Source of the DNA: an uncultured Prevotella sp.
Lineage (GTDB): Bacteria > Bacteroidota > Bacteroidia > Bacteroidales > Bacteroidaceae
Assembly: GCA_947170265.1 (NCBI GenBank)
Contig: CAMVSV010000004.1
Span: forward strand, 1-64,000
Reading direction: 5' to 3'
Length of the DNA: 64,000 nt
The position numbers and the translations under genes are program-made. Of this stretch, positions 1-53,246 are shown piece by piece. Positions within the stretch are counted from its first letter, which is position 1, and every line of letters begins with the position of its first letter. The notes under the pieces are model-generated. The model was given only the letters and a program-made list of their open reading frames with translations, was not told the origin of the DNA and searched no databases.

Positions 1-51
1 CTCACTGTGCGGAGAATATTTTTCGTTCACATTTGTTAACTGTTTCACGGA
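1..51 (+). repeat. Partial copy (right end) of a ~270-bp interspersed repeat
   Basis: ctcactgtgcggagaatatttttcgttcacatttgttaactgtttcacgga matches 26178-26227 and the reverse complement of ~52976-53026 almost exactly; cut by the window edge. Confidence 0.85.
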
Positions 52-25615: not shown

Positions 25616-25956
25616 TTTCAGTCGACAAGAATAGACATAACGTCTCTCTATTTTCCCTCAAAAATCTGATGCCCGCCCCTTTTAGAGCTGACACCCGCTG
25701 CAAAAATATGAAATAATTACAAATAAGCAAAGAAAAACGAGGATTTCTTTTCTTTTAGTTTCAATTTCGTGTTATTATATAATTTAGTTGAGGTGGTTGT
25801 ACCGTTGAGGCGGATTTCTTGCTTCTGGCAAGCGACCATAGGTCGATTTGCAATCATGAGCGGTAGAAAGATTGCAAATCCGACACAACGGGAAATCCGA
25901 CACAACAGACGCAACTGAAATCGGGTACAATAGAGTGTTATTTTTCGCAAAAATTC

Positions 25957-26226
25957 CCGTGAAACATTTTGTGAACAAACGTAAAAGAATGCAAAATATC
26001 GAGCCATTCCTTTAACATTTGAAGACAAAGAAGGGTACAAAAACCACCTCTGTAACTCACTGGTAATCAAAAGGTTGAAAGGGGCATTTCAAAAGAGCCT
26101 CTTTTAGCGTGCAAAAGAGCCTCTTTTGGAAGGTAAAAGAGCCACTTTCGCAACGCAAAAGTGGCTCTTTCGTTTTCTCACTGTGCGGAGAATATTTTTC
26201 GTTTACATTTGTTAACTGTTTCACGG
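25957..26226 (+). repeat. Interspersed repeat, copy 2 (MITE/REP-like)
   Basis: ends ccgtgaaaca (25957-25966) and tgtttcacgg (26217-26226); same internal palindrome array as copy 3; similarity continues some nt beyond the ends. Confidence 0.85.
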
Positions 26227-52975: not shown

Positions 52976-53246
52976 CCGTGAAACAGTTAACAAATGTGAA
53001 TGAAAAACATTCTCCGCACAGTGAGAAAACGAAAGAGCCACTTTCGCGCTGCGAAAGAGGCTCTTTTACCTTCCAAAAGAGGCTCTTTTGCACGCTAAAA
53101 GAGGCTCTTTTAAAATGCCCCTTTCAAGCGATTGATTATCAACGAGTTACAAAGACGATTATTTATGCCTTTCTAAGTCTTCAAATGTTAAAGAATTACC
53201 CCAATATTTTACACAACTTAACGTTTATTTACAAAATGTTTCACGG
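52976..53246 (-). repeat. Interspersed repeat, copy 3 (inverted relative to copy 2)
   Basis: Reverse complement of 25957-26226 with scattered substitutions and small indels; same 10-bp end sequences. Confidence 0.85.

Follow-up and report, generated by a model that had tools for sequence, protein, structure and literature searches.

What kind of sequence is the ~270-bp segment that occupies positions 25957–26226 of the window (the whole 64,000-nucleotide stretch analysed, corresponding to bases 1–64000 of contig C4 in a 2.5-Mb draft genome of 72 contigs)? A sequence-only reading had taken it for an interspersed repeat that recurs at 52976–53246 and partly at 1–51, and both recurrences were borne out. 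The complete copies at 25957–26226 (+ strand, 270 bp; copy 1) and 52976–53246 (− strand, 271 bp, with its array at 53030–53110) matched a 53-copy consensus from end to end, with 89% and 90% identity, respectively. The segment at 1–50 (+ strand), 100% identical to consensus positions 222–271, is all that contig C4, which begins at window base 1, retains of a third copy: its right end, 50 bp long.

The repeat proved far from confined to these copies; such confinement, with no empty-site orthologues, was to have counted against the earlier interpretation. A pattern built on its conserved tail (≤3 mismatches) was found at 63 places in the genome, and its reversed control at none; one match, C20:22104, sits in an unrelated context, leaving 62 genuine cores. 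Nine additional copies run off contig ends before reaching the tail, giving at least 71 copies in total, and contigs of the assembly terminate inside repeat copies. Copies other than copy 1 shared 83–90% identity with it, and 40 near-full copies were scored in the genome search. Both ends were present in 53 copies, 27 of them on the + strand: 36 measured 271 bp, ten 269–270 bp, four 248–249 bp and three 227 bp, so that 46/53 fall within 269–271 bp and 7/53 lack one or two 22-bp units. A lone element end was detected at C6:47574. In a simple survey of open reading frames (ORFs) the copies were intergenic, their flanks were unrelated to one another, and no ORF was conserved within them; the repeat is, like a MITE, short, non-coding and high in copy number.

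The element is bounded by terminal inverted repeats. On the left, CGTGAAACA (25958–25966, + strand), followed by subterminal TTTTGTGAACAAACGT, was exact in 50/53 full copies; on the right, TGTTTCACGG (26217–26226, + strand), preceded by subterminal CATTTGTTAAC, was exact in 44/53. Ends of 10 bp had been proposed, and their inverted arrangement stands, with the strict length shortened to 9 bp (CGTGAAACA/TGTTTCACG, plus similar subterminal CAAATGT sequences): about equal numbers of copies have C and G directly before CGTGAAACA. The end sequence CGTGAAACATTTTGTRAA occurs at 64 sites in this genome, compared with 0–1 in each of 398 other congeneric genomes, among which the CGTGAAACA-type end does not recur; judged by these genomes, the end sequence is private to its species. 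Doubt over the borders had been expressed from the outset and was warranted. Both flanks retain weak conservation, mainly AAAA at −4 to −7 and AATTGAAAA at +1 to +9, which dies away by ~+30, and some copies adjoin other repeats, making the exact borders uncertain.

Two such neighbours were seen repeatedly. A second repeat, TAATCGGAAAGTTCTGCGGGACATGAAAAACACCC, with 13 matches in the genome, directly adjoins element copies on either side, often at contig ends (sites include C9:16230, C11:222, C14:17, C15:35, C17:51041, C40:19311 and C50:34). Several copies are preceded by a short stretch of GACACAACT-like units and then GAAATCGGTTATAACA, a combination present at window positions 25876–25925 and in the left flanks of C10:23609, C18:2881, C33:458, C43:17648 and C44:1032, which looks like another low-complexity intergenic repeat.

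No target-site duplication was detected in the 53 two-ended copies when offsets of 0–24 and lengths of 2–11 were scanned, in agreement with the initial impression; the best excess of matches over shuffled pairing amounted to ~5/53 copies, for 2-letter matches. Nor did the draft assembly of this species yield an autonomous element or transposase with CGTGAAACA ends, the partner for which a search had been suggested. An empty site was sought beside the pgm-like gene, but the nearest relatives, only 78% identical in that gene, had not kept the neighbouring gene and were too distant to show one.

Internally, the order of parts is end CGTGAAACA, a poorly conserved left arm, motif TGTAACTCATTGATAATCAA, a four-unit array, tail GTTTTCTCACTGTGCGGAGAA and end TGTTTCACG. 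The conserved motif before the array (TGTAACTCACTGGTAATCAA, 26051–26070, + strand) is recognisable beside arrays in other Prevotella species. What had been described as two 15-nt palindromes and a larger hairpin is instead an array of four 15-bp, A/T-flanked palindromic units at an exact 22-bp period, all read on the + strand: AAAAGAGCCTCTTTT at 26091–26105 and again at 26113–26127, AAAAGAGCCACTTTC at 26135–26149 and AAAAGTGGCTCTTTC at 26157–26171, with 7-bp spacers AGCGTGC, GGAAGGT and GCAACGC. The ‘hairpin’ is units 3 and 4, which form an inverted repeat across the GCAACGC spacer (16-nt arms, 94% complementary). A- and T-tracts recur every 10–12 bp across the ~80-bp array, and the size steps among copies equal one and two array units, copies with three or two units measuring 248–249 bp and 227 bp. 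The tail follows at once, at 26172–26192 (+ strand).

These parts are unevenly conserved. Among the 46 full-size copies mean pairwise identity was lowest in the left arm (63%) and high in the array (95%), the tail (93%) and the right end (97%); the array and ends are held while the remainder drifts. Some cores lack these outer ends: C16:19421, C16:36860 and C6:19666 keep array and tail but carry TTATTTAGAATTTTT outside instead of CGTGAAACA, and in C3:97238, C42:15258 and C8:76775 neither of the two sequences surrounds the array and tail. The core can therefore live in more than one ‘shell’. At the discounted tail match C20:22104, the tail word TGTGCGGAGAA occurs twice in opposite orientation within ~80 bp (as AGTATTCTCCGCACAAATACT and GTCTCATTGTGCGGAGAAAGG), in a hairpin-rich stretch lacking the array and without an Rfam match.

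Arrays of this architecture are abundant, if patchy, across the genus. A family pattern corresponding to two consecutive units (AAAAG-N5-CTTTT-N7-AAAAG-N5-CTTTT, ≤1 mismatch), scanned against 150 Prevotella genomes, gave 139 matches per strand in the window's own genome, 95–282 per strand in seven congeners (G010, G012, G063, G077, G089, G102 and G108) and 18–45 per strand in six more. Arrays were abundant in 14/150 genomes overall and wholly absent from 116/150, and the reversed-pattern control was mostly 0. The densest carrier seen was the 1.6-Mb genome G063 (282 matches per strand), in which no Y1 transposase was matched. Words within the stems differ by species: GAGCCTC/GTGGCAC in the window's element, GATGACC/GGTCATC in G010, GCATAGC/GCTATGC and GGGCTGC/GCAGCCC in G012, and GCGGCTC/GAGCCGC and GCGTAGG/CCTACGC in G108. 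A hidden Markov model (HMM) of the left arm placed its best match directly beside an array in G108 (E 0.26), G010 (E 0.28) and G012 (E 0.044); each match is weak, but the placements are consistent.

The core of the window's repeat belongs to a wider, patchily distributed Prevotella family of which the only described member seems to be PINSR, a 188-bp intergenic non-coding repeat with 177–184 copies in P. intermedia, which also sits downstream of tnaA, has no known function, was described without terminal inverted repeats and hence classed as not a MITE, and was published as specific to the P. intermedia/nigrescens group (Naito et al. 2015, PMC4755523). Array cores in two congeneric genomes, G108 and G017, resemble PINSR: they are of like size, are intergenic and also occur downstream of tnaA. 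Many G108 array elements match over ~189–190 bp, and one (C1:1534244–1534690) lies just downstream of tnaA (C1:1534838–1536190, − strand). We infer that the G108/G017 family is PINSR or its closest kin, the two being equated by size, place and tnaA position rather than by the published consensus. The window's element shares the array architecture and leading motif of these cores, but differs from PINSR in species and length (271 bp), and in having its own arms, stem words, tail and CGTGAAACA ends; it is a relative, not PINSR itself. The restriction to one group does not hold for the array architecture, which is abundant, with species-specific words, in the 14 genomes noted above. Rfam returned chance matches only (the best 28.7 bits against a 54-bit gathering threshold, and none in the G108 stretch searched), so that, on the question of whether the element matches a repeat already named, Rfam offers nothing and PINSR a relation.

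The G017/G108 sister family provides evidence of movement. These genomes are ~92% identical and syntenic in blocks, and differ by whole array elements. A 347-bp array insertion in G017 (C92:87611–87957), absent from G108, is flanked by a repeated AACAAT (6 bp, or 7 bp with one change); a 454-bp array insertion (G017 C92:45930–46384), with ends ACGTGAG...CTCACAT, is filled in one genome only; and a further filled/empty pair differs by 377 bp (225856–226233). Other array elements are common to both genomes. A 1.4-kb segment lying between two array copies in G108 is missing from G017, as expected of recombination between array copies.

In G108 the larger elements of the sister family carry the ends of a resident insertion sequence. 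The end sequence CGTGAGTTCGATATAAG occurs there in inverted pairs of three spacings: ~1,020 bp (about ten pairs), 236 bp (five) and, enclosing arrays, ~450 bp. The largest of these elements, 1,024 bp long, encodes an IS982 transposase (NF033520, E 3.9e-84; PF13612, E 1.1e-72), and the copy examined is flanked by a 7-bp duplication, TATCAAA. An array element at 146504–146956 has the near-duplicate flanks AACCATT/AACTATT outside its ends. Many G108 array copies consist of the core only (~190 bp), and others carry the IS982-type ends. The IS982 copies, of the family represented by ISPi1 and ISPg3 (PMC4755523), share their ends with the ~450-bp array elements; an autonomous partner with the same ends, such as a MITE should have, exists for the sister family in G108, and none was found in the draft assembly of the window's species, whose element is non-coding and ends in other sequences. 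It is plausible that the resident IS982 is the helper of the ~450-bp array elements. If the G108/G017 family is equated with PINSR or a very near relative, the claim that PINSR lacks terminal inverted repeats is modified, at least for the larger versions with IS982-type ends.

A degenerate IS982-family element was also noted in the window itself, at ~130–1150 (− strand), with broken frames and apparent ends TGTTGGNTGAATTAAA. Its 126-amino-acid fragment at 622–1002 matches NF033520 (E 1.3e-15), and it begins ~80 bp from the partial repeat copy at 1–50. As a helper for the repeat it was rejected, its apparent ends differing from those of the element.

Is the array's structure maintained? On either strand the predicted RNA fold of copy 1 was better than that of every shuffle, and the − strand (z −8.6) surpassed the + strand (z −5.7). 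Covariation was assessed on 42 distinct G017/G108 arrays against 500 shuffles, which leave relatedness in place. Units 1 and 3 stay complementary while their words swap: there were 56 double-changed cells compared with 31.9 in shuffles, and the covariation score was 0.169, compared with 0.067 ± 0.011 (0/500 shuffles) and with slid versions, which reached at most 0.049. Units 2 and 3 showed no covariation on the same arrays, and a hairpin over that pair in G017/G108 was rejected; the lack of signal is a fair control for the 1:3 result. Within the window's genome the variant carried by unit 3 was associated with that of unit 4 (31 T/A, 9 A/T, 6 T/T and 0 A/A; Fisher p 4.5e-6); each unit is then a palindrome in itself, or both together make a single long, perfect hairpin. 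This association, and part of the covariation, could stem from subfamilies or gene conversion and not from selection for pairing.

These observations make it probable that the segment is a non-autonomous, MITE-like mobile repeat of ~271 bp, in a form private to its species and belonging to a PINSR-type family. Mobility of the repeat is well supported, and the MITE side of the original comparison holds in copy number, inverted ends, intergenic placing, unrelated flanks and the filled and empty sites of the sister species. We prefer to say that it ‘works like a MITE’: size, copy number and ends fit, but duplication and partner are wanting in this species. Against the mobile reading stand the lack of an own-genome target-site duplication, of an own-species empty site and of a transposase with CGTGAAACA ends, together with cores devoid of outer ends and borders blurred by conserved flanks. 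On the mechanism, the ends would be recognised in trans by a DDE transposase, which by analogy with the sister family may be IS982-like; by the same analogy, the window's family might use a related transposase that recognises other ends. The helper may have been lost, may be degenerate, or may be encoded in sequence missing from the assembly. Insertions into genes would be purged, leaving intergenic copies. The array presumably forms stem-loops, either as RNA or as single-stranded DNA; folding would be what is conserved, stem words drifting species by species. Copies act as recombination sites at which array units are gained and lost.

Other origins for such a repeat were weighed against this one. 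REP/BIME elements are intergenic palindromes with species-specific sequence, and an element of that type, spread by a RAYT (a Y1 HUH transposase) recognising the palindromes as single-stranded hairpins, would account for the hairpin-forming units, the species-specific words and the patchy distribution. It would not account for the outer terminal inverted repeats, which are no feature of REPs, or for the 22-bp-period multi-unit array, and the distribution of the transposase argues against it: PF01797 was present in 7/14 array-rich and 8/16 array-poor genomes (30 genomes; no association), it was absent from G108 (105 array matches), G102, G012 and G063, and 6/8 Y1 loci inspected lacked an array, the other two having an array-like match ~0.3 and ~1.3 kb from the gene. 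With Y1 genes not tracking arrays, the REP half of the earlier comparison is not supported, and spread by a RAYT must be considered very improbable. Strict intergenic placing, an array and tail much more conserved than the left arm, and A-rich/T-rich stems resembling bidirectional terminators would all suit a standing regulatory cassette (bidirectional terminator, mRNA 3′ stabiliser or insulator) that is selected and spread by rare duplication, and part of G108 shows contexts of 7 convergent, 7 tandem and 1 divergent. In the window's own genome, by contrast, the 40 classed genuine copies lay between genes that were tandem in 19 cases, divergent in 14 and convergent in 7; with no terminator bias there, the terminator-only reading was rejected. 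The repeat is moreover absent from most species of the genus and occurs in filled/empty pairs in the sister species, making a cassette unlikely as the primary explanation. A terminator or insulator effect is possible as a secondary role, but is not the reason for the placing of copies in this genome.

An array whose A/T tracts, every 11 bp, bend DNA for a nucleoid or partition protein would agree with the 10–12-bp steps over 80 bp and with a 22-bp period invariant in several species; by itself such curvature leaves the covarying inner words unexplained, and we consider it quite unlikely. A two-layer origin, in which an old array core was captured by the outer terminal repeats of unrelated MITEs so that the ‘element’ differs by lineage, is suggested by the window's genome, where one core is surrounded in no fewer than three ways (CGTGAAACA, TTATTTAGAATTTTT or neither), and by the core-only and IS982-ended copies of G108. 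Weighing the other way, 53/62 cores in the window's genome share one shell, and that core–shell combination has therefore multiplied there, and subterminal TTTTGTAAA looks alike in both lineages. As a rival it is possible but short of probable; it refines the interpretation as a MITE-like mobile repeat more than it opposes it, and is likely to be true in addition.

Among named systems, BrickBuilt and MITE464/PgRS of Porphyromonas gingivalis are also close, being Bacteroidales MITEs with an internal tandem array of 23 or 41 bp (Klein et al. 2015, PMC4596501). BrickBuilt occurs 19 times in the genome; its 23-bp units abut without spacers, its ends differ (CCGAAAGGTCTC), and palindromic units with covarying words do not feature in the part of the description consulted (PMC4596501). 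The novelty of the repeat is moderate, and the covarying stem array is the more interesting part of the finding. We tentatively suggest that the array may act in cis as a structured signal, whether for transposition, for mobility coupled to replication or for RNA ends. Entire stem words would give way to others, both from one species to the next and inside a species, with set units regaining their complementarity, and the array would travel in varied terminal-inverted-repeat shells; such an arrangement would be unlike REPs, attC sites and the interiors of known MITEs. The base-pair covariation makes array function testable.

PINSR, which its authors considered group-specific and no MITE, thus gains a place among a broader set of Prevotella repeats and, for two species or more, a likely mobiliser in the form of an IS982 element whose ends it shares. 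Copies also break assemblies and are recombination sites; in a genus dominant in gut and mouth, they shape both the draft genomes and the differences between strains.

Two smaller repeats were encountered in the sister genomes. Five 236-bp elements in G108 (for example C1:905952–906188) share ends with the resident IS982 and have the form of a classic small MITE. In G017 a 149-bp insertion absent from G108 (C92:90906–91054) contains GTAGGGGTGTGGTTTATCACGTTCCTACAATCC and its inverse, and is a small hairpin repeat.
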